From Kitasatospora phosalacinea (GTDB taxonomy: Bacteria > Actinomycetota > Actinomycetes > Streptomycetales > Streptomycetaceae), in contig NZ_JNWZ01000018.1 in assembly GCF_000716545.1 (NCBI RefSeq), positions 33,339 through 97,338 of the forward strand: 64,000 nucleotides of DNA, in the 5' to 3' direction. The notes beneath the pieces are model-generated. The model searched no databases and was not told the DNA's origin. It saw nothing but the letters and a program-made list of their open reading frames with translations. This document shows, piece by piece, positions 1-15,066 of the stretch (the stretch's first letter is position 1; each line of letters opens with the position of its first letter). Both the position numbers and the translations under genes were made by a program.

Positions 1-1065
1 TGCATCGGCTACGACGCGGTCACCGGCTTCGAACGGCTCGTCCTGCAGCCGTCGACGCTGCCGACCTACGACCTGTTCCTGCCCGAGGTGCTGGTCCGCT
101 TCGGCCCGACCGGGACCACGGTGATCGGCCGCGGGGCCACCGCCGCGGCGGCCCGCGCCGCCGCCGAGCGCACCGAGCGGACCCTCGCCCGGGCCGGGCG
201 CTTCCCGGCCCCGGAGTCCCGGGTCGGCCGGGGCGCGTTCGCGCACGAGCCGGGCGAGTACCTGGAGTCGGTGCGCCGGGCCAAGGAGCACATCCTGGCG
301 GGCGACATCTTCCAGGTGGTGCTCTCGGTCCGGTACTCGGCGCCGGGCGAGGCCGACGGCCTGACGCTCTACCGGCGGCTGGCGGAGTTCAACCGCTCGC
401 CGTACCACTTCTGGTACCGCGGCGGGGACTTCGAGGTGGTCGGGGCCTCGCCGGAGCCGTGCGTCACGCTCACCGACGGCGACGTGCTGATCCGCCCGCT
501 GGCCGGCACCCGGCCGCGCGGCGCGGACCGGGCCGCCGACCTGGCCGCCGAACGCGACCTGGTCACCTCGGAGAAGGAGCTGGCCGAGCACCGGATGCTG
601 GTCGACCTGGCCCGCAACGACCTCGGCCGGGTCTGCGTGCCGCACAGCGTCCGGGTGCCGCGGCTGATGGAGGTCGAACGGTACTCCCACGTCATGCACC
701 TGACCTCGGACGTCCACGGCCTGCTGCGCCCCGAGTGCCGCACCGACGACCTGCTGCGGGCCGGCTTCCCGGCCGGCACCATGACCGGCGCCCCCAAACT
801 GCGGGCGATCGAGATCATCGACGAGCTCGAACCCGTCGGCCGCGGCCTCTACTCCGGTGCGGTCGGTTCCTTCGGCACCCACCACGCCGACCTCTACCTG
901 ACCATCCGCGCCCTCGTCCTGCACCGGGGCGAACTGCACCTGCAGGCCGGCGGCGGCATCGTCCACGACTCCGACCCGCTCGCCGAGCGCGAGGAGTGCG
1001 TGGCCAAGCTCCGGGCCGCCGCCCGCGCCGCCGACGTCAGCCTCGGACCGGGAGTGCGCCCGTGA
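1..1065 (+). CDS. Anthranilate/ADIC synthase component I, 5'-truncated by window edge
   Basis: The frame is open from base 1, so the gene begins upstream of the window. The visible part is the chorismate-binding domain of the TrpE/PabB/PhzE family: SPEP, the AGTRPRG motif, the metal/chorismate segment MLVDLARNDLGRV, GTMTGAPK, and a C-terminal AGGGIV with an EREE cluster. The enzyme adds ammonia, delivered by the adjacent amidotransferase, to chorismate. The product is anthranilate, or 2-amino-2-deoxyisochorismate (ADIC) if the pyruvate-eliminating step is absent; sequence alone does not settle which. It overlaps the next gene by GTGA, implying translational coupling. The neighbouring secondary-metabolic genes indicate a pathway copy rather than the housekeeping trpE. 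Confidence 0.88.
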   Translation, partial: CIGYDAVTGFERLVLQPSTLPTYDLFLPEVLVRFGPTGTTVIGRGATAAAARAAAERTERTLARAGRFPAPESRVGRGAFAHEPGEYLESVRRAKEHILAGDIFQVVLSVRYSAPGEADGLTLYRRLAEFNRSPYHFWYRGGDFEVVGASPEPCVTLTDGDVLIRPLAGTRPRGADRAADLAAERDLVTSEKELAEHRMLVDLARNDLGRVCVPHSVRVPRLMEVERYSHVMHLTSDVHGLLRPECRTDDLLRAGFPAGTMTGAPKLRAIEIIDELEPVGRGLYSGAVGSFGTHHADLYLTIRALVLHRGELHLQAGGGIVHDSDPLAEREECVAKLRAAARAADVSLGPGVRP

Positions 1066-1643
1066 TCGTCATCATCGACAACTACGACTCCTTCGTCTAC
1101 AACCTCGCCCAGTACGCGGGCCAACTCGGCCGCGAGTGCCGGGTGGTGCGCAACAACGAGCTCACCGCCGAAGAGGTCCTGCGGCTCGATCCGAGCCTGC
1201 TGCTGATCTCGCCCGGCCCCGGCGGCCCGCAGGACGCCGGGATCTCGCTCGACCTGATCCGCGACCGCGGCCACCGGGTGCCCATCCTCGGCGTCTGCCT
1301 CGGCCACCAGTGCATCGCCGAGGCGTTCGGCGCCCGGGTGGTCCGGGCCGCGGTGCCGATGCACGGCAAGCTCAGCCCCGTCACGCACCGGGGCGTCGGC
1401 GCCTTCGCCGGGCTGCCCAGCCCGATCGAGGTCACCCGCTACCACTCGCTGACCGTCGACCCGGACTCCGTACCGGACGAACTGGTCGTCACCGCCTGGA
1501 CCGACACCGGCGAGGTCATGGGACTGCGCCACCGCGAACTGCCCATCGAAGGCGTGCAGTTCCATCCCGAATCGCTGTTCACCGAAAGGGGCTTCGACAT
1601 GGTGGCCAACGCGCTGCAGGCAGCCGAGCAGGTGCTCGCGTGA
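1062..1643 (+). CDS. Glutamine amidotransferase, anthranilate/ADIC synthase component II
   Basis: This 193-residue class I glutamine amidotransferase (TrpG/PabA type) supplies ammonia to the chorismate-binding subunit encoded just upstream. It begins VIVIIDNYDSFVYNL, has the oxyanion strand SPGPGGPQDAG, the nucleophile in GVCLGHQ, and the His-Glu pair in VQFHPES, so the whole Cys-His-Glu triad is present. The GTG start overlaps the upstream stop (GTGA). Separate subunits argue against a canonical phenazine PhzE, which is a fusion of both. It is likely co-transcribed with the genes on either side. Confidence 0.93.
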   Translation: MIVIIDNYDSFVYNLAQYAGQLGRECRVVRNNELTAEEVLRLDPSLLLISPGPGGPQDAGISLDLIRDRGHRVPILGVCLGHQCIAEAFGARVVRAAVPMHGKLSPVTHRGVGAFAGLPSPIEVTRYHSLTVDPDSVPDELVVTAWTDTGEVMGLRHRELPIEGVQFHPESLFTERGFDMVANALQAAEQVLA

Positions 1644-2698
1644 GCGGCCGCCGGGACACCGAAGCGCTCGCGCACCTGCGCTCCGTGCTGGAGTGGCACT
1701 TCGGCCCCGAGACCGGCTCGCCGTTCTGGCTCAAGCGCCTGGACTCCCTCGGCTTCGACCCGCTGCGCGACGTCCGGGACTTCGCCGACCTGCGGAAGTT
1801 CCCCGACCTCAGCGACGAACTGCGCACCGTCCCGGTCGACGACCTGGTGCCGGCCGGCTCCGCCCACCTCCCCTTCGAGGTCTACGAGTCCGGCGGCACG
1901 CTCGGCGCGCCCAAGCGGGTCGTCGAGCACCTCTCCCGGCAGGAGGGCGTCGACTGGGTCGAGACGGTCCTCCCCGACTTCGACGGCGGCGGCCACTGGC
2001 TGCACATCGGTCCCACCGGCCCGCACATCGTCGGCCGCTCGGTGCGCCGCCTCGCCCAGCTGCGCGGCGCCAAGTTCCTCACGGTGGACTTCGACCCGCG
2101 CTGGGTGAAGCTGCTGATCCGCACCGACCGCCGCCCGCTGGCCGACGAGTACGTGCAGCACGTCCTCGACCAGGTCGAGACGATCGCCGAGTCCCAGGAC
2201 GTCCGGGTGCTGTTCGTCACCCCGCCCGTGCTGGAGGCGCTGTGCGCCCGCGACCGGCTGTACGGCCTGCTCGCCGACCGCCTCACCGGCATCATCTGGA
2301 GCGGCACCAGCATCAGCGGCACCGCGCTGCGCCTGCTGGAGACCGAGTTCTTCCCGAACGCCCGCGTCCGGGGCATCTACGGCAACAGCCTGATGGGCAT
2401 CGCCCCGCAGCGCCCGCCGCGGCCCGGCGACACCCACCCGTGCGTCTTCCGCACCTTCCGGCCCCGCTCGGTGGTCGAGGTCGTCGACCCCGCCACCGGC
2501 GAGCGGGTCGCCCCCGGCGAACGCGGCCGCGTCCTGGTCCACCTGCTCACCGAGGACCTGTTCCTGCCGAACGTCGCCGAGCGCGACACCGCGGTCCGGA
2601 TCGTCCCCGACGACCCGGACCTCCCCGGCGACGACCTCGCCGACGTGCAGCCCTACCGGGCCACCGCCGACACCCAGGTGATCGAGGGCGTGTACTAG
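1640..2698 (+). CDS. LuxE/GriD-like acyl-activating component of an aromatic carboxylic acid reductase
   Basis: A 352-residue member of the LuxE acyl-protein synthetase/phenylacetate-CoA-ligase-like group. The nucleotide-binding loop reads ESGGTLGAPKRVV, a variant of the adenylation SGTTGxPK motif. Later come IIWSGTSISG, GIYGNSLMG and GRVLVHLLTEDLFLPN, typical of the fold. Together with the LuxC-like dehydrogenase immediately downstream (start shared with this stop, TAGTG) it matches the organisation of GriD-GriC, which reduces 3-amino-4-hydroxybenzoate to the aldehyde in grixazone biosynthesis. Here the likely substrate is the aminobenzoate made by the preceding enzymes; that assignment is inference. 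It should activate the acid as an acyl-adenylate and hand it to its partner. Confidence 0.8.
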   Translation: MSGRRDTEALAHLRSVLEWHFGPETGSPFWLKRLDSLGFDPLRDVRDFADLRKFPDLSDELRTVPVDDLVPAGSAHLPFEVYESGGTLGAPKRVVEHLSRQEGVDWVETVLPDFDGGGHWLHIGPTGPHIVGRSVRRLAQLRGAKFLTVDFDPRWVKLLIRTDRRPLADEYVQHVLDQVETIAESQDVRVLFVTPPVLEALCARDRLYGLLADRLTGIIWSGTSISGTALRLLETEFFPNARVRGIYGNSLMGIAPQRPPRPGDTHPCVFRTFRPRSVVEVVDPATGERVAPGERGRVLVHLLTEDLFLPNVAERDTAVRIVPDDPDLPGDDLADVQPYRATADTQVIEGVY

Positions 2699-4032
2699 TG
2701 GACGCACCCACCCTCCAACCGCTCGTCGCGGGCGAACACCTCGCCTGCGACGAGACCGTGGACCTGCCCGCCACCGACGGCACCCCGCTGGCCCGGGTCG
2801 GCGCCGCCCCGACCCTGCTGCTGCACCTCGCGGTGCGGCGCCTGCGCGGCGCGGCCGTCCCGCCCGAGGTCCTCGACCGGGCCGGCGCGCTGTTCGCCGA
2901 GGCCGAACTGGCCGGCGAGAGCGCCGACGCCTACCGGGCCCGGACCGTCGCCGCCACCGGCCTGCCGGAGCGGGTGGTCGCCGCCGGGCTGCACAGCGTC
3001 CGCACCGGACTGGCCCGGCTGGCCGAGAGCAACGCCCGCCAACTCCCGGCGCCCGCCCCGGGCGTGCGCTGGCTGCCGCGCGGGCGGACGCTGGGCGTCG
3101 TCACCCCGTCCAACCACGTCGACCCGCACCTGACCTGGGCCCGGGCGCTGTCGCTCGGCTACGGCGTCGTCGTCCGGCCCGGCACCCGGGATCCGTTCAC
3201 GCCCTTCCGGCTCGCCGCCGCCCTGCTGGCGGCCGGACTGCCCCCGGCCGCCCTGGCCGTGCTGCCCGGCGACCACGCCCTCGGCGAACGCCTGCTGGAG
3301 ACCACGGACCTGGGCATCGTGTACGGCGGCCCGGGCGCCGTCGCCCGCTGGGCCGACCGGCCCCGGGTGCTGACCCGGGGGCCCGGCCGCAGCGCCGCCC
3401 TGCTCGACCGGCCGCTGACGCCCGACCTGCTCGACGCCCTCGCCCGCGCGGTCGCCGCCGACGCGGGCGTCCGGTGCGCCAACACCTCGGTGATCCGCAC
3501 CACCGGATCCCCGGCGCGGGCCGCCGAGGCGCTCGCCGAACGGCTCGACGCGCTGCCCGCGCACCCGGCGACCCACCCCGAGGCCGTCCTGCCGGTGTTC
3601 CCCGCCACCCAGGCGGCCCGGCTCCGGCAGACCCTCGCCGACCTGGAACGCGCCGGGCTGCGCCGCCACACCGCCGCCGACGGCCCCGCCCCGCTGCCCG
3701 ACGGCACCTGGGTCGGGCGCCCGGTGGTGCTCAGCACCGGCGACCCCGACCACCCGGCGATCGGCACCGAACTGCCGTTCCCGTTCGTCGTCGTCGCGCC
3801 CTACGCGCCCGCCGCCGGACCGCGGCAGTTCGGCCGGACCCTGGTGCTCTCCCTGCACAGCGACGACCCCGACCTGCCGGACGCCGCGCTCGCCGAACCG
3901 GGAGTGCGCCGGGTCGTCGTCGGCGGCGCGCCGCCGTGGACCGGCGCACCCCAACTACCGCACGACGGCAGCCTGCTCGACTTCCTGCTGGAGCCCAAGG
4001 CGCTGCTCTCCGACAAGGAGCCCCTGACATGA
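2698..4032 (+). CDS. LuxC/GriC-like acyl reductase (aldehyde dehydrogenase fold)
   Basis: A 444-residue ALDH-superfamily protein of the LuxC acyl reductase type. It carries the cofactor-binding stretch VVTPSNHVDPHL, a GGPGAVARW loop, and the acyl-accepting cysteine at residue 260 in RCANTSVIRT. The expected reaction is NADPH-dependent reduction of an activated aromatic acid to an aldehyde, with the acyl group first loaded by the LuxE/GriD-like partner. The GTG start shares its G with the upstream TAG. The 3' end overlaps the SDR gene (ATGA), so reductase pair and SDR form a coupled block. A role in aldehyde oxidation cannot be excluded from the fold, but the pairing makes reduction more likely. 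Confidence 0.8.
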   Translation: MDAPTLQPLVAGEHLACDETVDLPATDGTPLARVGAAPTLLLHLAVRRLRGAAVPPEVLDRAGALFAEAELAGESADAYRARTVAATGLPERVVAAGLHSVRTGLARLAESNARQLPAPAPGVRWLPRGRTLGVVTPSNHVDPHLTWARALSLGYGVVVRPGTRDPFTPFRLAAALLAAGLPPAALAVLPGDHALGERLLETTDLGIVYGGPGAVARWADRPRVLTRGPGRSAALLDRPLTPDLLDALARAVAADAGVRCANTSVIRTTGSPARAAEALAERLDALPAHPATHPEAVLPVFPATQAARLRQTLADLERAGLRRHTAADGPAPLPDGTWVGRPVVLSTGDPDHPAIGTELPFPFVVVAPYAPAAGPRQFGRTLVLSLHSDDPDLPDAALAEPGVRRVVVGGAPPWTGAPQLPHDGSLLDFLLEPKALLSDKEPLT

Positions 4033-4721
4033 AGCACGTGGTCGTCACCGGCGCGTCCGGCGACCTCGGCACCGCCGTCGTCGCCCGGGCGGTGGCCGCG
4101 GGCGCCGAGGTCCTCGCCCAGTACCACTCCCGGCCGCCGGGCGTCGCCCACCCCGCGGTCACCCCGGTCCGGGTGGACCTGACCGCGGACGGCGGCCCCG
4201 CGGAACTCGCCGCGGCCGTCCCGTGGGACGGCGTCGACCTGCTGGTGCACTGCGTCGGCGGCGCCCGGGCCACCCCGTTCGGCGAACTGGGCACCGCCGC
4301 CTGGCGGGACTCCCTGCAGCTGAACGTCGAGGTGCCGTTCACCGTCACCCGCGAACTGCTCGGCCCGCTGGCCGCGGCCGGCGGCGCGGTGGTCAACCTC
4401 TCCAGCGTCGCCGCGTTCACCGGCGGCGCCTTCGGCCCGCACTACGCCGCCGCCAAGGCCGCCGTGGTCGGCCTGACCAGGTCCGCCGCCCGCGAGCTCG
4501 GCGAGCGCGGCATCCGGGTCAACTGCGTCGCGCCCGGCCCGGTCGCCTCGGCGATGACCGACTCGCTGCCCGCGGAGGTGCTGGCCGGGCTGCTGGCCTC
4601 CACCGCGCTGCGCCGGGTGGTGACGCCCGAGGAGGTCGCCGACACCGTGTTCGCGATCGGCGCGGCCACCGGCGTCACCGGCCAGACCCTGGTCGTCGAC
4701 GGCGGCCGCTTCCTGCACTGA
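4029..4721 (+). CDS. Short-chain dehydrogenase/reductase (FabG-like)
   Basis: A 230-residue classical SDR. The Rossmann glycine motif is TGASGDLG near the N-terminus, the catalytic Ser lies in NLSSVAAF, the Tyr and Lys in HYAAAKAA, followed by GIRVNCVAPGPV and the C-terminal VDGG. Two roles fit the cluster. It could aromatise a dihydro-hydroxyanthranilate, as SDRs do in 3-hydroxyanthranilate routes; that would need an isochorismatase, not seen in this window. Alternatively it could act on a carbonyl of the ACP-bound or aldehyde intermediate. The start overlaps the upstream gene by four bases. Confidence 0.87.
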   Translation: MKHVVVTGASGDLGTAVVARAVAAGAEVLAQYHSRPPGVAHPAVTPVRVDLTADGGPAELAAAVPWDGVDLLVHCVGGARATPFGELGTAAWRDSLQLNVEVPFTVTRELLGPLAAAGGAVVNLSSVAAFTGGAFGPHYAAAKAAVVGLTRSAARELGERGIRVNCVAPGPVASAMTDSLPAEVLAGLLASTALRRVVTPEEVADTVFAIGAATGVTGQTLVVDGGRFLH

Positions 4722-4767
4722 GCACCATCCCGCCCAGCCAACTTCCCCAGTACACGAAGGAGTTCCG

Positions 4768-5862
4768 GTGCTGTTCATCTGCAGGGCTGTCGACGAGGAC
4801 GCGGTGCGCGAGCGGATCCACGCCCGCGTCCCCACCCCGCACGGCGCGGTGGTCTGCCGGGTCGGCGACCGGCTGCTGGTGCACGTGCCCGACGGCCGGT
4901 CGGTGGCCGCCGAGGTGCTGCACGACTCCGGCCTGGTGCAGCAGGTGCTGGACGACCACTCGGACGCGCCGCTGACCGACCGGGCCGCCGCACCGCTCGG
5001 CTCGCTGGTGCGCCTCGGCGGCCAGGCCACCGTCGGCGGCGTCGACTTCGCGCTGATCGCCGGGCCGTGCGCGGTCGAGAGCGCCGAGCAGATGGCGGCC
5101 TCGGCGCGGCTGGCCAAGGACGGCGGCGCGGTCGCGCTGCGCGGCGGCGCCTACAAGCCGCGCAGCTCGGTGTACAGCTTCCAGGGCCTGGGCGAGGAGG
5201 GCCTGCGGATCATGGCCGAGGCCGGGCGGGCGGCCGGACTGCCGGTGGTCACCGAGGTCCTGGACCCGGCCACCGTCGACCTGGTCGCCGAGCACGCCGA
5301 CGTGCTGCAGGTCGGTACCCGCAACGCGCAGAACTTCAGCCTGCTCAAGGCCGTCGGCCGGGCCGGGCGCCCGGTGCTGCTCAAGCGCGGCTTCGGCTGC
5401 ACCGTGGGCGAGTGGCTGCAGGCCGCCGAGTACGTGCTCGCCGCGGGCAACCCCGACGTGGTGCTCTGCGAGCGCGGCATCCGCACCTTCGAACCGGCCA
5501 CCCGCTTCACCCTGGACCTGGGCGCCGTCGCGGTCGTCAAGCACCGCAGCCACCTGCCCGTCATCGTCGACCCCAGCCACGGGGTCGGCCACCGCCACCT
5601 GGTCAAGCCGATGGCGCTGGCCGCCGCCGCGGCCGGCGCCGACGGACTGCTGGTCGACATCCACCCCGACCCGGCCGCCGCGCTCTGCGACGCCGACCAG
5701 GCCCTCGACCGGGAGCGCTGGTTCGACCTGGCCGGCGCCGTCCGTGACGTCCTCACCGGCCTGGGCCGCGGACTGGCCATCTCCCAGCCCGAGCCCGCGA
5801 CCGGCCCCGCGACCGGCCCCGCGACCGGCCCCGCGCCCGAGCCCGCCGGGCGGGCCCGGTGA
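4768..5862 (+). CDS. DAHP synthase, type I-beta with N-terminal ferredoxin-like domain
   Basis: Condenses phosphoenolpyruvate and erythrose-4-phosphate, the entry step to chorismate. About 70 N-terminal residues form a small FL/ACT-like regulatory domain of the Thermotoga-type enzyme. The TIM barrel follows with AGPCAVES, GGAYKPRSS, GTRNAQNF, LLKRGFG, VKHRSHLPVIVDPSHG and DIHP. Streptomycetes normally use a type II enzyme for primary metabolism, so this copy probably feeds the cluster. The GTG start has AAGGAG five bases upstream. The last 25 residues are an ATGP-type low-complexity tail made by a 12-bp tandem repeat. The gene overlaps the next by GTGA. Confidence 0.92.
   Translation: MLFICRAVDEDAVRERIHARVPTPHGAVVCRVGDRLLVHVPDGRSVAAEVLHDSGLVQQVLDDHSDAPLTDRAAAPLGSLVRLGGQATVGGVDFALIAGPCAVESAEQMAASARLAKDGGAVALRGGAYKPRSSVYSFQGLGEEGLRIMAEAGRAAGLPVVTEVLDPATVDLVAEHADVLQVGTRNAQNFSLLKAVGRAGRPVLLKRGFGCTVGEWLQAAEYVLAAGNPDVVLCERGIRTFEPATRFTLDLGAVAVVKHRSHLPVIVDPSHGVGHRHLVKPMALAAAAAGADGLLVDIHPDPAAALCDADQALDRERWFDLAGAVRDVLTGLGRGLAISQPEPATGPATGPATGPAPEPAGRAR
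5797..5832 (+). repeat. 12-bp tandem repeat, three copies, inside the DAHP synthase 3' end
   Basis: The unit GCGACCGGCCCC occurs three times without mismatch and stays in frame, adding Ala-Thr-Gly-Pro blocks to the C-terminal tail. The array lies beyond the catalytic barrel, so changes in copy number should be tolerated. Confidence 0.9.
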
Positions 5863-6950
5863 CGCCCCGACCGGACCTCGCCGTGATCGGCGGCGGCGTG
5901 GTCGGGCTGTCCGTCGCCTGGCGGTGCGCGCAGCGCGGCCTGACCGTCGAGGTGCACCACGAGGAGCTCCCCGGCACCGCCTCCGCGGTCGCGCCCGGCA
6001 TGCTCTCGCCGGTCAGCGCCGCAGACTTCCCCGCCCCCGAACTGCTGGCCTTCGCCCACCGGGCCCGGCACCGCTGGCCCGCCTTCGCCGCCGAACTCGC
6101 CGAGGCGAGCGGCACCGACCTCGGGTACGGGGCCGACGGCATGCTGCTGGTCGCCCACCGGCCGTCCGACCGCGAACGGGTCGCCGCCATGTACGCCTTC
6201 CGGGAGGGCCACGACGCCCCGCCGAAGGCCCTGGACGCCGCCGGGCTGCGCGCCCTGGAACCCCTGCTGTCGCCCGACGCGGACGGCGGCGGCTTCGTCA
6301 CCGAGGACCACCACGTGGACGCCCAGCGCGTCCGCGCGGCCCTGCGGACGGCCGGGGAGGCGGCCGGGGTTCGCTTCGTCGCGGGCCGGGTCGGCGCCCT
6401 GGACGAGGTGCGGGCGGGGGCGGTGCTGGTCGCCGCCGGGTCCTGGTCGCCCGACCTGCACCCGTGGCCGGTCACCCCGGTGCGCGGCCAGGTCGTGCTG
6501 CTGCGCGACCCGGACGGCGGCCCCGGGCTCCGGCACGGCATCCGGGGCGTGGTGGACGGGCAACCGGTGTTCCTGGCCGGCCGCCACGGCCACGAGACGG
6601 TCGTCGCCGCCACCCTCGACCACACCGGCTTCGACGTGCGGCCCTCCGCGCAGGCCACCGAGGGACTGCTGCGCAGCGCGGTCGCCCTGGTGCCCGCCCT
6701 GGCCCGGCACCGGGTGGTGGAGACCCGGGTCGGGCTGCGGCCCGACACCCCGGACCACCTGCCCGTCATGGGACGCGTCCCGGGCCGCCCGGACACCTAC
6801 GCGGCCACCGGCCACTACCGGCACGGCGTCCTGCTGGCCCCCCTCACGGCCGACCTGCTCGCCGACCTGGTCGCCACCGGCACCGACGCCGTCCCCGCCG
6901 CCTTCAGCCCCGAACGGTTCCGCACAGCGAAGGAAAGCACCCCCCGATGA
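5859..6950 (+). CDS. FAD-dependent oxidoreductase, glycine oxidase (ThiO)/DAO family
   Basis: A 363-residue flavoprotein with the N-terminal dinucleotide-binding motif VIGGGVVGLSVAW, a central VLVAAGSWSPDL, and the C-terminal GLRPDTPDHLPVMG and ATGHYRHGVLLAP that are characteristic of D-amino-acid oxidase-fold enzymes of the ThiO group. It should oxidise an amine to an imine with release of hydrogen peroxide. ThiO itself makes iminoglycine for thiazole synthesis, but no thiamine gene is nearby, so this is more likely a pathway amine oxidase. The GTG start overlaps the DAHP synthase stop, and the 3' end overlaps the exporter gene. Confidence 0.82.
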   Translation: MTPRPDLAVIGGGVVGLSVAWRCAQRGLTVEVHHEELPGTASAVAPGMLSPVSAADFPAPELLAFAHRARHRWPAFAAELAEASGTDLGYGADGMLLVAHRPSDRERVAAMYAFREGHDAPPKALDAAGLRALEPLLSPDADGGGFVTEDHHVDAQRVRAALRTAGEAAGVRFVAGRVGALDEVRAGAVLVAAGSWSPDLHPWPVTPVRGQVVLLRDPDGGPGLRHGIRGVVDGQPVFLAGRHGHETVVAATLDHTGFDVRPSAQATEGLLRSAVALVPALARHRVVETRVGLRPDTPDHLPVMGRVPGRPDTYAATGHYRHGVLLAPLTADLLADLVATGTDAVPAAFSPERFRTAKESTPR

Positions 6951-8356
6951 CACCTCCACCCGCACCCACCGCGGCACCGGCCGAGAACCGGACGGTGTTC
7001 GGCCGGCTGGACCCGGCGCGCCTGCTGCCGGTCGCCTGGCCGGTCTACATCGAGCTGATGTCGGGCGTCATCGCCGGCATCATCTCGGTGGTCTGGATCG
7101 CCCGGCTCGGCGCGTCCGCGCTGGCCACCGTCACCATGGCCAGCACCCTGGAGAACGTCCTGACCAGCGTCGTCCTGGCGGTCAGCGGCGGCACCACCAT
7201 CCTGCTGTCGCAGGCCGTCGGCGCGAACGACCACGCCCGGCTGCGCCCGGTGCTGCGGGCCGCCTTCCGCCTCACCCTGCTGGTCACCGTGGTGATCTGC
7301 GCGGTGCTGTTCGTGCTGCGCGAACCGCTGGCGAAGCTGATCCTCGGCTCCGACGAGCACGACGCGGTCGGCCTGTCGGTCGACTACCTGACCGTCACCG
7401 TGCCCGGCATCGCGGTCTTCTACGGCCAGTACCTGGTGGACAGCACCTTCAAGGCCAACGGCGACACCCGCACGCCGATGCGGATGGCCCTGCTGTCGAA
7501 CCTGATCCTGGTGGTCGCCGACCCGGTCCTCATCTACGGCTGGCTGGGCGCGCCCAAGCTGGGGGTGACCGGCTCCGCGCTGGCCCTGGTCGGCTCCCGG
7601 GCGGTCACGCTGGCGGTGACCTGGTGGCTGTACCGCAGGTCCGCGCTGGCCGCGCAGCTGGCCGCCGCGCCCGAGACCGCCACCGAGAGTCCGGGGAAGG
7701 GCCCGGTCCGCGAGATCCTGGCGGCCGGACTCCCGCTCGGGGTGGACTTCCTGGTGCGGATGGCCGCCGGGATGCTGATCGTCGGCGTGGTGGCCCGGTT
7801 CGGCACCGACCAGGTCGCCGCGTACGGCACCGTGACCCGCACCCTGCTGTTCCTCACCATGGCCGCGTACGCGATGCGGCAGGCCGCGACCATCATCGCC
7901 GCCCGGGCCAAGGGCGCCGACGACGAGGAACTGCTGGCGGCCAGCCGCACCTCCTCGGTGCGCCTGGGCATCGCCTGGTCGCTGCTCGGCGGCCTCGCGG
8001 TGCTCACCCTCGGCGGCCTCGCCGCGGACGCCGTCACCGGCGACGCGGCGGTGCGCAGCGCCGCCCACGGCCAGGTCCCGTGGCTGGCGGTCTACATCAC
8101 GCTGCTGCTGTGCAACGTCACGCTCAGCGGCATCTTCCTCGGCGGCGGCCACGGCAAGGCCCTGGCCACCTCCACCACCGCCGGCGCCGTCCTGCAGCTC
8201 GTCCTGGCCCCGCTGCTCGCCCTGACGCCGCTGGGCCTGACCGGCGCCTGGATCGCCATGATCGTCAACGCCGGCACGCAGACCACCGTGCTGCTCGTGC
8301 TGGCGACCCGTCAGATGTCCGCCCCCAAGCTCGAAGCCAAGGAGGTCGCGGCATGA
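6947..8356 (+). CDS. MATE-family efflux transporter
   Basis: A 469-residue multidrug and toxic compound extrusion protein with about twelve hydrophobic segments arranged as two six-helix halves around a charged linker near residues 235-250. Features include WPVYIELMSG in helix 1, GDTRTPM after helix 5, and a second-half repeat beginning LPLGVDFLVRM. It is expected to export the cluster product, or a toxic aldehyde or amine intermediate, in exchange for Na+ or H+. The gene overlaps both neighbours by four bases, placing it inside the biosynthetic operon. Confidence 0.88.
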   Translation: MTPPPAPTAAPAENRTVFGRLDPARLLPVAWPVYIELMSGVIAGIISVVWIARLGASALATVTMASTLENVLTSVVLAVSGGTTILLSQAVGANDHARLRPVLRAAFRLTLLVTVVICAVLFVLREPLAKLILGSDEHDAVGLSVDYLTVTVPGIAVFYGQYLVDSTFKANGDTRTPMRMALLSNLILVVADPVLIYGWLGAPKLGVTGSALALVGSRAVTLAVTWWLYRRSALAAQLAAAPETATESPGKGPVREILAAGLPLGVDFLVRMAAGMLIVGVVARFGTDQVAAYGTVTRTLLFLTMAAYAMRQAATIIAARAKGADDEELLAASRTSSVRLGIAWSLLGGLAVLTLGGLAADAVTGDAAVRSAAHGQVPWLAVYITLLLCNVTLSGIFLGGGHGKALATSTTAGAVLQLVLAPLLALTPLGLTGAWIAMIVNAGTQTTVLLVLATRQMSAPKLEAKEVAA

Positions 8357-9366
8357 CCGCGCCCGTGACGCTCGGAATCTCCGCCCTCGCGCACGTCCTG
8401 GGCGAGCCCCAGGACGTGGCCGCCACGGCCGGCTCGTACGTCGACGACCCCGAGCGGGTGATCCGCTGGGGCTACCGCACCTACCACCGGGCCGCCCCCG
8501 GCGTCGGCCAGACGCTGATGGCCGCCGACGCCGCCCGGCGGGCGATGGACGCCGCCGGGCTGGGCCCCGCCGACATCGACTACCTCGTGGTCGCGGACAG
8601 CGGCGTGCCGGAGTACCTCAACTGGGACGCCTCCGCCGCCGTCGCCCGCGAACTCGGCCTCGGCCCCACCCCGACCCTGCTCGCCACCCAGGGCTGCTCC
8701 TCCGCGGTGACGGCGCTGCAGCAGGTCGCCGGGCTGATGGCGGTCCGCGAGGACGTCCACCGGGTGCTGCTGGTCGCCGTCCACCGGGTCAGCGAGGCGC
8801 ACATCAACCGGATGCGCAACAACACCTGCCTGGGCAGCGACGGCGCGGCGGCCGCGGTGCTGGAGCGCGGACACGGGCGGCTGCGCTGGCTGGCCACCGA
8901 CCAGATCGTCGACCCGCGCTACGTCGACTTCTTCCGGGTCGAGTACGGCGGCGGCGCGGCCCCGGAGGGCGCCAACCTGGAGGTCGACCAACTCGCCCTG
9001 GTCCACCAGTACTTCCGCCGCGAACCGGAGCAGCTCGCCGAGTTCGTCAAGGACGTCGACCACAAGGTCGCCGCCGTCGTGGAGCGCGCCTGCAAGCGCG
9101 CCGGGGTCTCCCCGTCGGAGATCCGGCGGCTGATCTACCTGAACGACAACCAGCACTCGCTGGCCGGGGTCGCCAAGGCCACCGGCATCCCGCTGGAGCG
9201 CACCAACGCGGACCTCTCCGCCGAGCTGAGCCACGTCGGCTGCGCCGACCAACTGCTCTGCCTGAGCCTGTACGACGAGCGCGGGGACCTGGAGGCCGGC
9301 GACCTGGTCGCGCTGGCCGGACTCTCCGGCGGCATGCAGTGGTTCTGCAGCCTGGTGCGGGTCTGA
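8353..9366 (+). CDS. KAS III-like (FabH-fold) acyltransferase with altered active site
   Basis: A 337-residue thiolase-fold protein of the beta-ketoacyl-ACP synthase III group. The acyl-accepting Cys115 sits in ATQGCSSAV. At the place of the FabH histidine (HQAN motif) the sequence reads LNDNQH, giving Asn264. At the place of the FabH asparagine (GNTS) it reads SHVGC, giving His293. The His and Asn of the usual Cys-His-Asn triad therefore seem exchanged. This could mean acyl transfer rather than decarboxylative condensation, as in KAS III relatives that form esters or load starter units, or a different condensation. An ACP lies 1.1 kb downstream and is the natural partner. The start overlaps the MATE stop. 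Confidence 0.83.
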   Translation: MTAPVTLGISALAHVLGEPQDVAATAGSYVDDPERVIRWGYRTYHRAAPGVGQTLMAADAARRAMDAAGLGPADIDYLVVADSGVPEYLNWDASAAVARELGLGPTPTLLATQGCSSAVTALQQVAGLMAVREDVHRVLLVAVHRVSEAHINRMRNNTCLGSDGAAAAVLERGHGRLRWLATDQIVDPRYVDFFRVEYGGGAAPEGANLEVDQLALVHQYFRREPEQLAEFVKDVDHKVAAVVERACKRAGVSPSEIRRLIYLNDNQHSLAGVAKATGIPLERTNADLSAELSHVGCADQLLCLSLYDERGDLEAGDLVALAGLSGGMQWFCSLVRV

Positions 9367-9370
9367 GACG

Positions 9371-10432
9371 GTGTCAGGCATGATCGACGACCACGCCACC
9401 GAGCGCACCGACGAGATCCCCCTCGACCAGGGCCGCACCGCCCGGCTGCGGCTGCCCGTCGCCGGGCCCGACGGCCGCCCCGCCCCGGCCGTGGTGCTGC
9501 TGCACCCGTACGGGGTCTGGGACCGCGACGCCTACCTGCCCGCCGAGGCCTCCGGCAACGGGCCGGTCCGGCTCTTCGCCGACCTCGGCACCGCCCTGAC
9601 CGCCGCCGGGACGGGCGCCCTCTCCTACGACACCCGCTTCCTCACCGAGGACCCGCACGGCGGCGCGGGCTCGCCCCGGTTCACCTTCACCGGGCTGGTC
9701 GACGACGCCGTCCGGGCGGTCGAGCAGCTGCGCGCCCACCCCGCGGTGGACGCCGACCGGGTGCTGCTCCTGGGCGTCTCGATGGGCGCCGAGGTCGCGC
9801 TGGCCGCCGCCGAACGCCTCGGCGGCGAGAGCCGCCTGGTGGTGGTGGCGCCCAGCGCCGAGGCCCGCCCGGTGTTCCAGCGCTGGATGGGCCTGGACCG
9901 GCGGCTGGAGTGGCTGGCCGCGGGCTTCACCGCCGCCGACGGCACCGTCGACCTCGCCGCCGCGCTGGCCGACACCACCGGCCGCAGCGGCTGGTGGGAG
10001 CCGTTCGACCTGGTCGAGCGCTTCGGCCCGCAGGCCGGCCTCGAAGTGCTGCGCGCCGAACTGGCGCTGGAGTACGACGCCTGGGAGGACGCGGCGCTGG
10101 CCGGGAAGGACGAGACCGCGCCCGCCTCGTTCTGGCGCGACTGGTTCGCCCAGCCCGCCCCGTACCGCCGCCTGGCCGGGATCACCGGCCGGCTCGCCGT
10201 CCACGTGGGCGCCGAGGACTGGACCACCCCCACCCGGCAGGCCCACCTGCTGCACCGCGCCGCGCTGGCGCGCGGCCTGCGCTCGCAGCTGCACGTCCAC
10301 CCGGGGCTGGGCCACCTGATGTCGCCCCGCACCGCGGACGGACTGCGCACCTACGGGCCGTTCGACCCGGACTTCCAGCGGGCCCTCGTCGCCTCGGTCG
10401 ACGAGGTGCTCCGCCCCGGCCCGACCCACTGA
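9371..10432 (+). CDS. Alpha/beta hydrolase
   Basis: A 353-residue hydrolase, or 350 residues if ATG 9380 is used instead of GTG 9371. The N-terminal strand ends in VVLLHPYGVWD, the nucleophile elbow is GVSMGAE, and a C-terminal histidine lies in HPGLGHLMSP after an acidic residue in GAEDWTTP. It could act as a thioesterase releasing the product from the ACP, or as an editing hydrolase. The position between the KAS III-like gene and the ACP supports a link to acyl chemistry, but the substrate is unknown. Confidence 0.8.
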   Translation: MSGMIDDHATERTDEIPLDQGRTARLRLPVAGPDGRPAPAVVLLHPYGVWDRDAYLPAEASGNGPVRLFADLGTALTAAGTGALSYDTRFLTEDPHGGAGSPRFTFTGLVDDAVRAVEQLRAHPAVDADRVLLLGVSMGAEVALAAAERLGGESRLVVVAPSAEARPVFQRWMGLDRRLEWLAAGFTAADGTVDLAAALADTTGRSGWWEPFDLVERFGPQAGLEVLRAELALEYDAWEDAALAGKDETAPASFWRDWFAQPAPYRRLAGITGRLAVHVGAEDWTTPTRQAHLLHRAALARGLRSQLHVHPGLGHLMSPRTADGLRTYGPFDPDFQRALVASVDEVLRPGPTH

Positions 10433-10493
10433 ACCCACCCACCGAACCCACCCGCGGACCCACCCCGGTCCCACCCTCACGGAAGGCCCCGCC

Positions 10494-10745
10494 ATGGCGA
10501 ACCTGACGCTCGCGGAACTGATCGAGCTGCTCAACGAGTGCAACGACTGGGAGGACCCGGTCGAGCCGACCGAGGACGTCCTCGACGAGCCGTACGACGC
10601 CCTCGGCTACGACTCGCTGACCCTGCTCAACGCGATCTCCAAGCTGGAGCGCGCCCGCGGCATCGAACTGCCCGCCACCATCACCTCCGAGGCCAAGACG
10701 CCCCGCGAGCTGCTCGCCGCCGTCAACTCCGCCCCCGCCGCGTGA
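10494..10745 (+). CDS. Acyl carrier protein
   Basis: An 83-residue acidic four-helix carrier. The phosphopantetheine attachment serine is Ser41 in LGYDSLTLLN, close to type II polyketide ACPs. It has GGAAGG-like ribosome binding at about 10481 and stands alone: no KS-alpha/KS-beta pair or PKS module is visible. It probably carries a short acyl unit, perhaps malonyl or malonamoyl given the asparagine-synthase-like gene next to it. The 61-base gap before it is C-rich and holds nothing else recognisable. Confidence 0.9.
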   Translation: MANLTLAELIELLNECNDWEDPVEPTEDVLDEPYDALGYDSLTLLNAISKLERARGIELPATITSEAKTPRELLAAVNSAPAA

Positions 10746-10815
10746 GCACCGCCGCCCGCGGCGACCGCGCGACGACCACCGCGTAACGACACTCGAAGAA
10801 CGGAGGAACACCGAC

Positions 10816-12669
10816 GTGTGCGGAATCACCGGCTGGTACGACCGGGACGGCGGACTGGAGCGCTCGCACGAACTGGTCCGACAGATGACCCGGACCATGG
10901 AGTGCCGAGGGCCGGACGAGGAGGGGATGTGGATCTCCGGTCCGGTCGCGCTCGGGCACCGGCGCCTGTCGATCATCGACCTGGAGGGCGGCAAGCAGCC
11001 GATGGTCGCCGACCAGGACGGCGACCGCACGCTGGCGGCCCTCACCTTCTGCGGCGAGGTCTACAACTACCGCGAGCTGCGGACCGAACTGGTCGCCCAC
11101 GGGCACAGCTTCCGGACCGACAGCGACACCGAGGTCGTGCTGCGCGCCTACCTGCAGTGGGGCACCGACTTCGCCTCCCGCCTCAACGGCATGTTCGCCA
11201 TCGGCATCTGGGACGCCCGCAGCCAGGAACTCGTCCTGGTCCGCGACCGGATGGGCGTCAAGCCGCTGCACTACTACCCGACGCCGGGCGGCGTGCTGTT
11301 CGGCTCCGAGCCCAAGGCGATCCTCGCCAACCCGCAGGCCCGCCGCACCGTCGACCGGGTCGGCCTGTGCGAGGCCCTGGACATGGTGAAGACGCCCGGC
11401 GCGGCCGTGTTCAGCGGCATGCACGAGGTCATCCCCGGCGAGATCGTCCGGGTCGACGCCAACGGCATCCACCGGTCCCGCTACTGGACCCTGGAAGCCG
11501 CCCCGCACACCGACACCCGCGAGCAGAGCATCGGCCACGTCCGCGAACTGCTGGAAGACATCGTCGCCCGCCAGCTGATCTCCGACGTCCCGGTCTGCAC
11601 CCTGCTCTCCGGCGGCCTCGACTCCTCCACCATCACCGCGCTCGCCGCCCAGGTGCTCGAACGCGAGGGCCGCGGCCGGGTCAACTCCTTCTCGGTGGAC
11701 TTCCGCGGCTCGGTCGACAGCTTCGAACCCGACGCGGTGCGCGGCGCGCCCGACGCCCCGTTCGTCCGGGACCTCTCCGCGCACGTCGGCACCAACCACC
11801 AGGAGATCCTGCTGGACAGCGCCGACCTGTCCCGGCCCGAGGTCCGGGCCGCGGTGCTGCGGGCCACCGACGTGCCCCCGGCGTTCTGGGGCGACATGTG
11901 GCCCTCGCTGTACCTGCTGTTCCGCGCGGTGCGCCGGCACTCCACGGTGGCGCTGTCCGGCGAGTCCGCCGACGAACTGTTCGGCGGCTACCTCTGGTTC
12001 CACCGCCCCGAGGCGGTCGACGCCGACACCTTCCCCTGGCTCACCTCCGGCTCCGCCCGCTACTTCGGCGGCACCTCGCTGCTCGACGGCGGTCTGCGGG
12101 AGAAGCTCGACATACCCGGCTACCGGGCCGAACGCTACGCCGAGGCCCTCGCCGAGGTCCCGTCCCTGCCCGGCGAGAGCGACACCGACCGGCGGATGCG
12201 CAAGGTCACCTACCTCAACCTCACCCGGTTCGTGCAGACCCTGCTGGACCGCAAGGACCGGATGAGCATGGCGGTCGGCCTGGAGGTCCGGGTGCCGTTC
12301 TGCGACCACCGCCTGGTCGAGTACGTGTTCAACACCCCGTGGGAGACCAAGACCTTCGACGGCCAGGAGAAGAGCCTGCTGCGCGCCGCGGCCCGCGACC
12401 TGCTGCCGGCCTCGATCCTGGAGCGCAAGAAGACCCCGTACCCGGCCACCCAGGACCCCGGCTACGAGGCCGCGCTGCGCGCCGAGATGGCCCAGGTGCT
12501 GGCCGACCCGAACGCGCCGGTGCTGCCGCTGCTGGACCGGGCCCGGCTCGGCAAGGTGCTGGACCGCTCGCTGAGCGCCACCAGCCTGCCGTACAGCCGC
12601 GGCGGCCTGGAGATGGCGCTGTGGCTGAACCGCTGGCTGTCGGCCTACGACGTGACACTCGACATCTGA
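10816..12669 (+). CDS. Asparagine synthase (glutamine-hydrolysing) family amidotransferase
   Basis: A 617-residue AsnB-type enzyme. Cys2 of the N-terminal nucleophile glutaminase follows a GTG start (residues CGITGWYDRDG), then RGPDEEG, GHRRLSIIDL and GEVYNYREL. The synthetase half has the ATP pyrophosphatase loop LLSGGLDSSTI and GESADELFGGY. Housekeeping AsnB makes asparagine. In oxytetracycline biosynthesis a relative (OxyD) amidates a malonyl starter, and a comparable amidation of an ACP-bound acid is the most attractive role here. It lies 70 bp after the ACP with a GGAGG-type ribosome site. Confidence 0.9.
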   Translation: MCGITGWYDRDGGLERSHELVRQMTRTMECRGPDEEGMWISGPVALGHRRLSIIDLEGGKQPMVADQDGDRTLAALTFCGEVYNYRELRTELVAHGHSFRTDSDTEVVLRAYLQWGTDFASRLNGMFAIGIWDARSQELVLVRDRMGVKPLHYYPTPGGVLFGSEPKAILANPQARRTVDRVGLCEALDMVKTPGAAVFSGMHEVIPGEIVRVDANGIHRSRYWTLEAAPHTDTREQSIGHVRELLEDIVARQLISDVPVCTLLSGGLDSSTITALAAQVLEREGRGRVNSFSVDFRGSVDSFEPDAVRGAPDAPFVRDLSAHVGTNHQEILLDSADLSRPEVRAAVLRATDVPPAFWGDMWPSLYLLFRAVRRHSTVALSGESADELFGGYLWFHRPEAVDADTFPWLTSGSARYFGGTSLLDGGLREKLDIPGYRAERYAEALAEVPSLPGESDTDRRMRKVTYLNLTRFVQTLLDRKDRMSMAVGLEVRVPFCDHRLVEYVFNTPWETKTFDGQEKSLLRAAARDLLPASILERKKTPYPATQDPGYEAALRAEMAQVLADPNAPVLPLLDRARLGKVLDRSLSATSLPYSRGGLEMALWLNRWLSAYDVTLDI

Positions 12670-12686
12670 CGGAGGGCGGCAAGACG

Positions 12687-13745
12687 ATGGAGTTCAGCCT
12701 CTTCTACTTCGCCAACGAGCAGGAGGACACCGGTTCGACCGACCGGTACGGCCTCCTGCTGGAGGGTGCGAAGTTCGCCGACGCCCACGGCTTCACCGCC
12801 GTGTGGACGCCCGAGCGGCACTTCCACGAGTTCGGCGGCATCTACCCCAACCCGGCCGTGCTCGGGGCGGCCGTCGCGGCCGTCACCGAACGGGTCGGCA
12901 TCCGCGCGGGCAGCGTGGTCGCCCCGCTGCACCACCCCGTCCGGATCGCCGAGGAGTGGGCGGTGGTCGACAACCTGTCCGGCGGCCGGGTCGGCGTGTC
13001 CTTCGCCTCCGGCTGGCACCCGCAGGACTTCGCCCTGCGCCCGGAGAACTTCGCCGACCGCAAGGAGAAACTGGAGCGCACTATCGCGGACGTCCGCGAA
13101 CTGTGGCGCGGCGGCACGCTCGCCGTGCTCGACGGCGCGGGCGAACAGCAGCACGTGCGCTCCTACCCCCGCCCGCTCCAGGCCGAACTGCCGGTGTGGA
13201 TCACCAGCTCCGGCGGCCCGGAGACCTTCCGGGCCGCCGGCCGCGCCGGGGCCGGGCTGCTCACCCACCTGGTCGGGCAGAGCCTGGACGAACTCGCCGA
13301 CAAGGTCGCGCTCTACCGCGAGGAGTACGCGGCCCGCTCCGGCGATCCGCAGGACCGCGGCCACGTCGTCCTGATGCTGCACACCTACCTGCACGAGGAC
13401 GAGGAGACCGCCCGGGCGGCCGTCCGGGCGCCGCTCACCGCCTACCTGCGCAGCTTCGCCGGGCTCACCATGACCTCCGGGCCGAAGGGCCGCCGGATCG
13501 ACCCGGCCACGCTCAGCCCCCGGCACTTCGACGCCATGGTCGAGCGCTCCTTCGAGCGGTACTTCGACGAGGGCGGCCTGCTCGGCACCGTCGAGAAGGC
13601 CGTCGACGTGGTCGAGCGGGTCCGCAAGGCCGACGTCGACGAGATCGCCTGCCTGATCGACTTCGGGGTGGCCCGGGAGCAGGTCGTGGCGGGCTTCGGG
13701 CCGCTGGCCCGGCTGCGCGAGGCCACCGCGGACGCCGGCCGGTGA
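12687..13745 (+). CDS. LLM-class (luciferase-like) FMN-dependent monooxygenase
   Basis: A 352-residue bacterial-luciferase-fold enzyme of the subgroup found in natural-product clusters (MupA/TIGR04020 type). Recognisable segments are SLFYFANEQ at the N-terminus, WTPERHFHEFGG, the ASGWHPQDFALRPENF stretch, and WITSSGGPETFRAAG. It uses reduced FMN and oxygen. The flavin reductase overlapping it by GTGA is the obvious supplier, giving a two-component monooxygenase. Possible chemistry is N- or C-hydroxylation or a Baeyer-Villiger-like step on the carrier-bound or aromatic intermediate. Confidence 0.88.
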   Translation: MEFSLFYFANEQEDTGSTDRYGLLLEGAKFADAHGFTAVWTPERHFHEFGGIYPNPAVLGAAVAAVTERVGIRAGSVVAPLHHPVRIAEEWAVVDNLSGGRVGVSFASGWHPQDFALRPENFADRKEKLERTIADVRELWRGGTLAVLDGAGEQQHVRSYPRPLQAELPVWITSSGGPETFRAAGRAGAGLLTHLVGQSLDELADKVALYREEYAARSGDPQDRGHVVLMLHTYLHEDEETARAAVRAPLTAYLRSFAGLTMTSGPKGRRIDPATLSPRHFDAMVERSFERYFDEGGLLGTVEKAVDVVERVRKADVDEIACLIDFGVAREQVVAGFGPLARLREATADAGR

Positions 13746-14311
13746 CCCGGGCCGCCGGTGCGGACCGGCTGCGGCTGCCGGAACTCCCCGCCACGGAGTT
13801 CCGGCGCGCGGCCGGCCGCTTCCCCACGGGGGTGACGGTGCTGAGCTGCGTGCGCGACGGGCAGGCGCACGGCATGACGGTGAACGCCTTCAGCACCGTC
13901 TCGCTCGACCCGCTGCTGGTCCTGGCGGTGCTCGGCAACCGCTCCCTGACGACCCGCCGGCTGCTGGCCGGCGACGGGTTCGCGGTGACCGTGCTGAGCG
14001 CCGGCCAGGAGGCGGTGGCCCGGGCGTTCGCGGACTCCGCCCGGGCCCGCGACGGCTCGCTGTTCGACGGCGTCGCGCACGCCCCGGCCCCGGGCACCGG
14101 CTCGCCGGTCCTCACCGGCGGCGTCGCGTACTTCGACTGCACGGTCGACGCCGTCCACCCGGCCGGCGACCACACCGTCCTGGTGGGCGCCGTCCGGGCG
14201 TTCGGCCCGCTGTCGGAGGAGCCCGCCCTGCTGTTCAGCCGCAGCCGCCTGGGCGCCGAACCGGACTTCGCCGAACCGGCCCTCGCCGTCCCGCCGGGGC
14301 CGCCGCGGTGA
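13742..14311 (+). CDS. Flavin reductase family protein (HpaC/ActVB type)
   Basis: A 189-residue FMN-binding split-barrel reductase. FRRAAGRFPTGVTVLSC is the signature start of the domain, followed by GMTVNAFSTVSLDPLLVL and the ligand loop NRSLTTRRL. It reduces free flavin with NAD(P)H for the adjacent LLM monooxygenase, which it overlaps by four bases. The GTG start was chosen because of that overlap. Its 3' end overlaps the permease gene, so the three genes are translationally coupled. Confidence 0.88.
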   Translation: MTRAAGADRLRLPELPATEFRRAAGRFPTGVTVLSCVRDGQAHGMTVNAFSTVSLDPLLVLAVLGNRSLTTRRLLAGDGFAVTVLSAGQEAVARAFADSARARDGSLFDGVAHAPAPGTGSPVLTGGVAYFDCTVDAVHPAGDHTVLVGAVRAFGPLSEEPALLFSRSRLGAEPDFAEPALAVPPGPPR

Positions 14312-15066
14312 CCGCCCACGGATGGGACCTGGGGCTGCTGACCGCCGCCGCGACGGGGGCGGGCGCCGTCAACGCGGTGGTCGGCTCGGGGTCGCTGATC
14401 ACCTTCCCCGCCCTGGTCGCGATGGGGTACCCGCCGATCCTCGCCACCGTGTCCAACAACGTCGGACTGGTCCCGGGCATGGGGGCCGCCGCGTACGGGT
14501 ACCGGCGGGAACTCCGCGGCCAGGGCCCGCTGGTGCGCGGCCTCGCGGCGGTGGCGGGCGTCGGCGCGCTGGTCGGCAGCCTGCTGCTGCTCGCCCTGCC
14601 CCCGACCTGGTTCCGGGCGGTGGTCCCGGTGCTGGTCGTCGCGGCCTGCCTGCTGGTGCTGCTGCAACCGGTGCTCTCCCGCCGCGGCGCCGCGCCCCCC
14701 GCCCGGGCCCCCCGCCCGGGTCCGCTCCGGTGGGGCGTCCTCGGCACCGGCGTCTACGGCGGCTACTTCGGCGCCGCCCAGGGCGTCCTGCTGATCGGCC
14801 TGCTCGGAGCGCTGACCACCGAGCACCTCCAGCGCCTGAACGCGGTGAAGAACGTCCTCGCCCTGACGGTCAACCTGGTCGCCGCCGTCGTCTTCGTCTG
14901 CGCCACCTCCGTCGACTGGACGGTGGCCGCCCTGGTCGCGGCCGGCTCCACCGTCGGCGGCCTGCTCGGCGCCCGCTACGGCAGACGCCTGCCCCCCGCC
15001 GGCCTGCGCTGGACCATCGCGGCGGTCGGCCTGCTCGCGGTGCTCCGGCTGACCGCCTGGTCCTGA
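14308..15066 (+). CDS. TauE/SafE-family permease
   Basis: A 252-residue membrane protein with about seven hydrophobic segments and the two TauE/SafE half-repeats. The first has GAGAVNAVVGSGSLITFPAL with TVSNNVGLVPG. The second has YGGYFGAAQGVLLIG with LNAVKNVLAL. Members export or import sulfonates and small organic anions. As the last gene of the coupled operon it is a second candidate exporter for the cluster product. It starts by GTG within the flavin reductase stop. Confidence 0.85.
   Translation: MTAHGWDLGLLTAAATGAGAVNAVVGSGSLITFPALVAMGYPPILATVSNNVGLVPGMGAAAYGYRRELRGQGPLVRGLAAVAGVGALVGSLLLLALPPTWFRAVVPVLVVAACLLVLLQPVLSRRGAAPPARAPRPGPLRWGVLGTGVYGGYFGAAQGVLLIGLLGALTTEHLQRLNAVKNVLALTVNLVAAVVFVCATSVDWTVAALVAAGSTVGGLLGARYGRRLPPAGLRWTIAAVGLLAVLRLTAWS

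Follow-up and report, generated by a model that had tools for sequence, protein, structure and literature searches.

A conserved 18-gene operon of Kitasatospora phosalacinea with a proposed role in the reduction and acylation of an aminobenzoate

A 64,000-nucleotide stretch of the Kitasatospora phosalacinea genome (G000:C18:33339-97338, hereafter the window) opens within an operon of 18 genes. Positions given without a contig label are window positions. Genes were called by codon usage, families were assigned by Pfam and NCBIfam scans, and cross-genome matches were obtained with tblastn. All 18 genes lie on the + strand, from -3509 to 15066 (G000:C18:29829-48404), and the largest gap between them is 70 bp (Table 1). 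The window cuts the left end: two ATP-grasp genes (ATPg1, ATPg2), a PF04199 hydrolase gene and the start of trpE stand outside it in that order, and the operon begins 3.5 kb to the left. Every gene that the initial annotation had named at 1-15066 was confirmed by the gene calls and family scans, and the leftward extension it had called for set the border at -3509 and added the ATP-grasp and PF04199 genes. The sequences themselves show which genes are present and in what order, how well they are conserved, which families they belong to and how their active-site residues align. On balance, the operon is probably a biosynthetic assembly line that reduces an aminobenzoate and then acylates it.

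Gene order was kept in two more Kitasatospora genomes, G151 (L038/L039, 85-97% identity per gene) and G181 (L040/L041, 70-95%), and, at 72-90%, in Streptomyces prasinopilosus NRRL B-2711 (L058) and Streptomyces sp. cf386 (L059). For the last two, 17 genes were counted, as ATPg1 lay beyond the DNA compared and ATPg2 was cut at its edge. The MATE match of G181 was split in two pieces, and the gene caller fused part of it with ThiO and predicted no ATPg1. Because the 18 genes share a strand, have gaps of at most 70 bp and keep their order in related genomes, they are one real unit, and their conservation is not due to chance. To the right, STAS and HATPase genes lie on the opposite strand 127 bp beyond the operon's end, and their proteins gave no match among those listed in L038, L040, L058 and L059; judged by conserved gene order, the TauE gene is the right border. 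To the left, a permease gene (C18:27071-29110) had no match in the stretches of G151 and G181 around the cluster. Genes of a nonribosomal peptide synthetase (NRPS) cluster further left (C18:9346-26601, window -23992 to -6737) encode condensation, adenylation, MbtH, thioesterase/MFS and DMFA2_C domains. They were considered as operon members and rejected, as no relative lay beside the cluster in the same two stretches apart from an adenylation match at 25%, some 16 kb off in G181; the NRPS cluster is separate.

The distribution of two operon proteins was surveyed. A relative of the ketoacyl synthase III (KAS III)-like protein, KAS3, was found at E 1e-100 in 4 of 70 genomes of the genus (the window's own, G151, G181 and G195, which is Kitasatospora sp. 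MAA4, loci L042/L043), and at E 1e-40 in 24 of 394 sampled genomes of the family. Relatives of the EhpF-type adenylase were present in 114 of these 394. The two lay no more than 7 kb apart in six of the 24 genomes (own, G151, G181, G195, G133 and G384), against a chance expectation of about 0.01-0.02 genomes by rough arithmetic; in three of the six the cluster is shared through common ancestry.

The TrpE-like synthase scored 351 bits with the NCBIfam model trpE_most (cut-off 517.7) and 287 with PabB-clade2, both under cut-off. Its BLAST scores against TrpE-type proteins were 220-239 bits, and those against the PabAB type 178-198. Its best match in all 24 other genomes was a 46-52% protein of 414-536 predicted residues, taken as TrpE. 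In the trees it stood alone on a long branch, which gave no choice between TrpE and PabB. No PabC-type lyase was recognised by Pfam among the 18 genes. Nor was an isochorismatase recognised in Pfam among the 15 operon genes in the window or the 15 called genes that lie between C18:6020 and the start of the window (the scan did not reach another four called genes to their left), which disfavours the 3-hydroxy variant allowed by the initial annotation. Anthranilate, with the ortho ring position, fits the synthase best and is the most likely aryl acid, though not a proven one.

The closest solved structure to the EhpF-type adenylase was EhpF of D-alanylgriseoluteic acid biosynthesis, and the protein was 59-64% identical to proteins beside a fused PabAB, 53-56% to those in grixazone-like loci, 43% to Burkholderia EhpF and 36% to Pantoea EhpF. 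Ten further EhpF loci were inspected. Four (L114, L115, L116, L119) lay beside a fused PabAB, five (L117, L118, L120, L121, L123) looked grixazone-like, as recognised by eye from first residues, and one (L122) lay within a phenazine cluster; an aldehyde dehydrogenase relative stood beside EhpF in all ten. Since nine of these loci lie with PabAB or grixazone-like genes and all carry the dehydrogenase, reduction of an aminobenzoate is well supported, and the aminobenzaldehyde pathway of the initial annotation is retained: an aminobenzoate is probably made and then reduced to the aldehyde. GriC/GriD, the grixazone-type reductase pair, likewise join an adenylase and an aldehyde dehydrogenase that act on an aminobenzoate. 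The operon differs from grixazone clusters in that no tyrosinase or gene forming 3-amino-4-hydroxybenzoate (3,4-AHBA) was recognised among its 18 genes by Pfam/NCBIfam. Separately, the four PabAB loci and L091 each combine the EhpF/dehydrogenase pair with a fused PabAB, AMP-binding proteins and a 3-deoxy-D-arabino-heptulosonate 7-phosphate (DAHP) synthase (annotated in L091, by eye elsewhere), and are perhaps a 4-aminobenzaldehyde-type cluster, also found on Streptomyces plasmids.

For KAS3, the residues, nearest folds and neighbours make acyl transfer a better reading than condensation. Cys115, His294 and Asp299 were invariant in 26 of 26 aligned sequences, as was N264. The predicted structure (pLDDT 90.4) had ChlB3, NatS, DpsC and CerJ as nearest folds. 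In structural alignment KAS3 and ChlB3 had Cys-His-Asp in common and had both lost the condensing histidine; the FabH His244 and Asn274 positions were not kept in KAS3. N264 corresponds to Asn in ChlB3 and to His in DpsC, which strengthens the argument for acyl transfer. KAS3 shares its fold with ChlB3 and CerJ, but differs in partners and substrates, and identity over the structural alignment was 22%. A thiolase-like Cys-Asn-His aldol enzyme acting on the aldehyde was considered, given the invariant N264 and H294, and set aside, as the ChlB3 match and fold ranking favour acyl transfer. Streptophenazine was also dropped as a precedent for an aldol between a KAS III and an aldehyde, as the pathway proposed in PMC10817512 uses type I polyketide synthase (PKS) genes.

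The genes that could load an acyl group were surveyed within a 6-kb radius of 40 KAS3 loci (some genomes counted twice, own locus excluded). FkbH was found at 21, AsnB with an acyl carrier protein (ACP) at nine and an adenylation (A) domain without FkbH at seven. According to a passage of PMC7489565, FkbH-like enzymes probably form glyceryl-ACP, which in tetronates serves a FabH-like protein as substrate. The KAS3 family also pairs with FkbH in clusters near which no EhpF or aldehyde dehydrogenase was found. In a type I PKS cluster of Streptomyces cinerochromogenes, counterparts of the short-chain dehydrogenase/reductase (SDR, 35%), KAS3 (62-63%), ACP (49-53%) and AsnB (69-70%) are consecutive; the cluster differs from the operon in its modular PKS genes and a separate, adjoining acyltransferase (AT)-like gene, and no EhpF or dehydrogenase match was found in the stretches compared. 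S. tricolor and two unclassified Streptomyces share this row of four genes. A plasmid of Klebsiella michiganensis (L154:5910-9684) carries consecutive genes for a haloacid dehalogenase (HAD) phosphatase, an AfsA-like protein, an ACP and an AsnB (61%, cut by the record end). As ACP and AsnB are neighbours in both settings, the comparison supports them as a pair, in keeping with the coupling seen in the initial annotation. That AsnB makes a malonamoyl group is a guess by analogy with the malonamoyl starter of tetracyclines (OxyD/DacD type), mentioned in passages of PMC13122635 and PMC5719088.

Other neighbourhoods of these families were noted. A Streptomyces sp. 769 plasmid (L155:6001-11391) carries AsnB (55%), an alpha/beta hydrolase with no match to that of the operon, a DAO-family oxidase (26%) and a luciferase-like monooxygenase (LLM, 31%) beside an NRPS. 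On a Streptomyces sp. KN37 plasmid (L153:546-9118), AsnB (57%) and a TauE protein (62%) lie near a KAS III gene without a match to KAS3. At L050:949-14768 and similar loci, KAS3-FkbH-ACP lies near a Lys/Orn monooxygenase, a cupin, a MetRS-like gene and a DDAH-like gene; monooxygenase, cupin and MetRS-like gene are a combination known from N-N bond formation.

The closest relative with a known product is, by gene content, the D-alanylgriseoluteic acid (ehp) type of cluster, read here on the Pantoea agglomerans plasmid pASB05p2. KAS3 matched 9 of 72,556 plasmid records, and five of the nine (four Pantoea, one Burkholderia ubonensis) also carried an EhpF relative. The pASB05p2 run comprises DUF2165, KAS III, ACP, AMP-binding, hypothetical, SDR, MFS, methyltransferase, aldehyde dehydrogenase and EhpF genes, followed by phenazine genes. 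The record is not labelled as a D-alanylgriseoluteic acid cluster; it was identified by gene content and by the DUF2165 neighbour described in a passage of PMC11350110. Passages of PMC3175449 state that EhpA-E make phenazine-1,6-dicarboxylate, that the remaining proteins save the transporter EhpJ convert it to D-alanylgriseoluteic acid, and that griseoluteic acid bears a hydroxymethyl group. Both clusters hold an EhpF-type adenylase (36%), an aldehyde dehydrogenase (27%), an SDR, an ACP and a KAS III keeping C, H and D (31%). Phenazine core genes and an AMP-ligase loader are found in ehp, and none was recognised among the operon's 18 genes by Pfam/NCBIfam, whereas TrpE/TrpG, AsnB, two ATP-grasp genes and the LLM/flavin reductase are found in the operon only. 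In the phenazine cluster of B. ubonensis an FkbH-like HAD protein (48% to that of MAA4) adjoins KAS III. By these comparisons the operon shares the ehp cassette and is predicted to work like ehp, yet is not a member of that type.

A variant cluster in Kitasatospora sp. MAA4 keeps ten of the genes at 43-63% (ATPg1, ATPg2, PF04199, EhpF, aldehyde dehydrogenase, SDR, DAHP synthase, MATE, KAS3 and the hydrolase). An isochorismate synthase (299 bits, cut-off 224.75) replaces TrpE/TrpG there, and FkbH (NCBIfam 284 bits, cut-off 146.65) with an ACP stands in place of the operon's AsnB and ACP. It also carries TrpD, TrpC, a tryptophan dioxygenase and a kynureninase-like gene (the last by eye); its TrpC and dioxygenase genes are additional to other copies in the MAA4 genome. 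Supply of anthranilate or kynurenine is possible in this cluster. It was considered as proof of anthranilate, and that use is weakened by its chorismate enzyme being an isochorismate synthase. With an isochorismate synthase and an FkbH/ACP pair, the MAA4 cluster would differ from the operon in its aryl unit, in its acyl group or in both. As MAA4 swaps the acyl loader and keeps the core, the acyl group looks like a decoration, and transfer to an ester or amide is therefore favoured over ring building. LarC-like nickel-insertion, LarB-like AIRC, LarE-like Asn/NAD synthase and DUF362 genes lie near the MAA4 variant.

The pathway we propose runs as follows; its ring position, acyl group, acceptor atom, step order and product type are all predictions. 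DAHP synthase and TrpE/TrpG would supply an aminobenzoate, most likely anthranilate, which the EhpF-type adenylase and the LuxC-type dehydrogenase would convert to an aminobenzaldehyde, and the SDR may carry this on to the aminobenzyl alcohol. In a separate branch AsnB would amidate an acyl group carried by the dedicated ACP; conversion of malonyl to malonamoyl is the best guess. KAS3 would bind the acyl group at Cys115 and pass it to the aryl unit, either at a hydroxyl or at an amine, with neither decarboxylation nor formation of a carbon-carbon bond. The ATP-grasp ligases would attach amino acids; ATPg2 is related in sequence to L-amino acid ligases of solved structure. Oxidation may be the task of ThiO and the LLM/flavin reductase, and export that of MATE and TauE.

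Table 1. Genes of the operon in order, with window positions and the matches on which each assignment is based.
Gene product	Position	Strand	Match or motif
ATPg1, ATP-grasp, 412 aa	from -3509	+	weak ATP-grasp scores
ATPg2, ATP-grasp, 418 aa	left of window, after ATPg1	+	solved L-amino acid ligases 30vh (206 bits), 3vot (59 bits)
PF04199 hydrolase, 230 aa	left of window, after ATPg2	+	Pfam
TrpE-like chorismate-aminating synthase component I, 461 aa	1..1065 (true start -320)	+	PF00425, 284 bits
TrpG/PabA-type glutamine amidotransferase	1062..1643	+	PF00117; TIGR00566, 225 bits, above cut-off
EhpF-type adenylating enzyme (proposed aryl acid activation for reduction)	1640..2698	+	PDB EhpF 3l2k/3hgu, 225 bits
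LuxC-like aldehyde dehydrogenase-fold acyl reductase, Cys260 present	2698..4032	+	PF00171, 41 bits
SDR, FabG-like, proposed aldehyde or keto reductase	4029..4721	+	PF13561; YxxxK and TGASGDL motifs
Class I DAHP synthase (proposed precursor supply)	4768..5862	+	PF00793, 236 bits
ThiO-type FAD amine/glycine oxidase (ThiO/DAO)	5883..6950	+	TIGR02352, 264.8 bits, cut-off 250.8
MATE exporter	6995..8356	+	PF01554
KSIII-like acyltransferase (KAS3, predicted), proposed triad Cys115-His294-Asp299	8353..9366	+	alignment, model
Alpha/beta hydrolase	9380..10432	+	PF12146, weak; 45% relative in MAA4 variant cluster
ACP, DSL motif at residue 40	10494..10745	+	PF00550; motif
AsnB-type glutamine-dependent amidotransferase, Cys2, SGGLDS	10816..12669	+	TIGR01536, 488 bits, above cut-off; 7ylz TsnB9, 594 bits
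MupA/Atu3671-family FMN luciferase-like monooxygenase (LLM)	12687..13745	+	TIGR04020, 479 bits, above cut-off
Flavin reductase	13742..14311	+	PF01613
TauE/SafE family permease	14308..15066	+	PF01925

Several observations weigh against this pathway. An acyl-loading gene is missing from the operon, the substrate of AsnB could be a different carboxylate, and no loader was found at 3 of the 40 KAS3 loci (L046, L065 and L068, of which L046 and L068 are one genome). DpsC also shows a His-x4-Asp pair, without Cys, and its fold score was as high as that of CerJ; the Cys-His-Asp argument is weakened, since His-x4-Asp also occurs outside the acyltransferases. The literature consulted describes no activity of any member of the KAS3 subfamily, and acyl transfer here is a prediction. 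Formation of the D-alanyl ester in ehp by its AMP ligase, ACP and KAS III is itself inferred from the gene set, and the operon's SDR had no match at E 1e-3 to the SDR of the Pantoea run. The nearest relatives of EhpF adjoin PabAB, which favours para over ortho, and the chorismate enzyme of MAA4 is an isochorismate synthase. For ThiO, the LLM, TauE, the hydrolases and the PF04199 protein the scheme offers no definite role; the nearest relatives of the last are metal-dependent hydrolases and kynurenine formamidases, with a score under the arylformamidase cut-off.

Other explanations were weighed on the same evidence. One is a variant of the proposed pathway in which the ring position alone differs: TrpE/TrpG would be an aminodeoxychorismate synthase of the p-aminobenzoate (PABA) pathway, and the aryl unit 4-aminobenzaldehyde or its alcohol. 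The EhpF relatives beside PabAB in L114, L115, L116 and L119 and a tree that gives no choice between TrpE and PabB speak for it, but the family and BLAST scores lean to TrpE and a PabC-type lyase was not recognised, and we regard it as possible without favouring it. Rather more doubtful is a route with identical enzyme assignments in which KAS3 N-acylates 2-aminobenzaldehyde with malonamoyl and a spontaneous Knoevenagel closure gives a 2-quinolone-3-carboxamide, later coupled to amino acids. Such N-acyl-2-aminobenzaldehydes do cyclise; the SDR, however, could remove the aldehyde, and MAA4 keeps the ten core genes but with FkbH/ACP, whose glyceryl group would not close in this way. The quinolone carboxamide put forward in the initial annotation could still arise so, by N-acylation and ring closure, but hardly by condensation on the KAS III-like enzyme itself.

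That condensation, of 2-aminobenzaldehyde with malonamoyl-ACP by KAS3 on the way to a quinolone carboxamide, was the step first envisaged and is now judged unlikely. An aldehyde-making pair, an ACP, AsnB and a KAS fold do lie in one operon, and DpsC, counted among Claisen-condensing enzymes in a passage of PMC9573744, is among the nearest folds with its His-x4-Asp pair. The loss of the FabH His244/Asn274 positions, the ChlB3-like N264 and the pairing of the family with FkbH in clusters where no EhpF or dehydrogenase was found nearby outweigh this. A trichostatin-type hydroxamate pathway, with AsnB moving hydroxylamine instead of ammonia, is very unlikely. TsnB9 was by far the top PDB match of AsnB (594 bits, next 160) and an oxygenase gene follows AsnB, but TsnB9 stands out among solved structures only: 17 of 30 plasmid records listed match AsnB at 51.8-60.8%, whereas the protein of S. 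angustmyceticus presumed to be its TsnB9 reaches 46.6%. Pfam/NCBIfam recognised neither a TsnB6 nor an AurF-like TsnB7 gene among the 18, and no sequence search with TsnB6/7 was made. Compared with these alternatives, the reduce-then-acylate pathway is preferred.

A broader interpretation is tentative. ACP, AsnB and the KSIII-like protein may make up a portable unit that assembles an amidated dicarboxylate (e.g. malonamoyl) on a carrier and delivers it to scaffolds of unrelated kinds, with the loader swapped between clusters: FkbH for glyceryl, an A domain for an amino acid or other acid, AsnB for an amide. Here an anthranilate-derived aldehyde or alcohol would also be joined to amino acids and give a new structural class, of which a malonamoyl aminobenzyl pseudopeptide or a quinolone carboxamide peptide may be examples.

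The operon joins known cassettes in a combination that was not found described in narrow literature searches, which likewise recognised no characterised cluster with this exact gene set, as the initial annotation had supposed. It is compact and also present in the collection strain S. prasinopilosus NRRL B-2711, so its product can be sought. The usual interpretation of a KAS III gene, and that of the initial annotation, is formation of carbon-carbon bonds. If the KAS3 family, with its relatives in 24 of the 394 family genomes, is instead a loader-swapped acyltransferase, the predicted products of many unstudied clusters would change.

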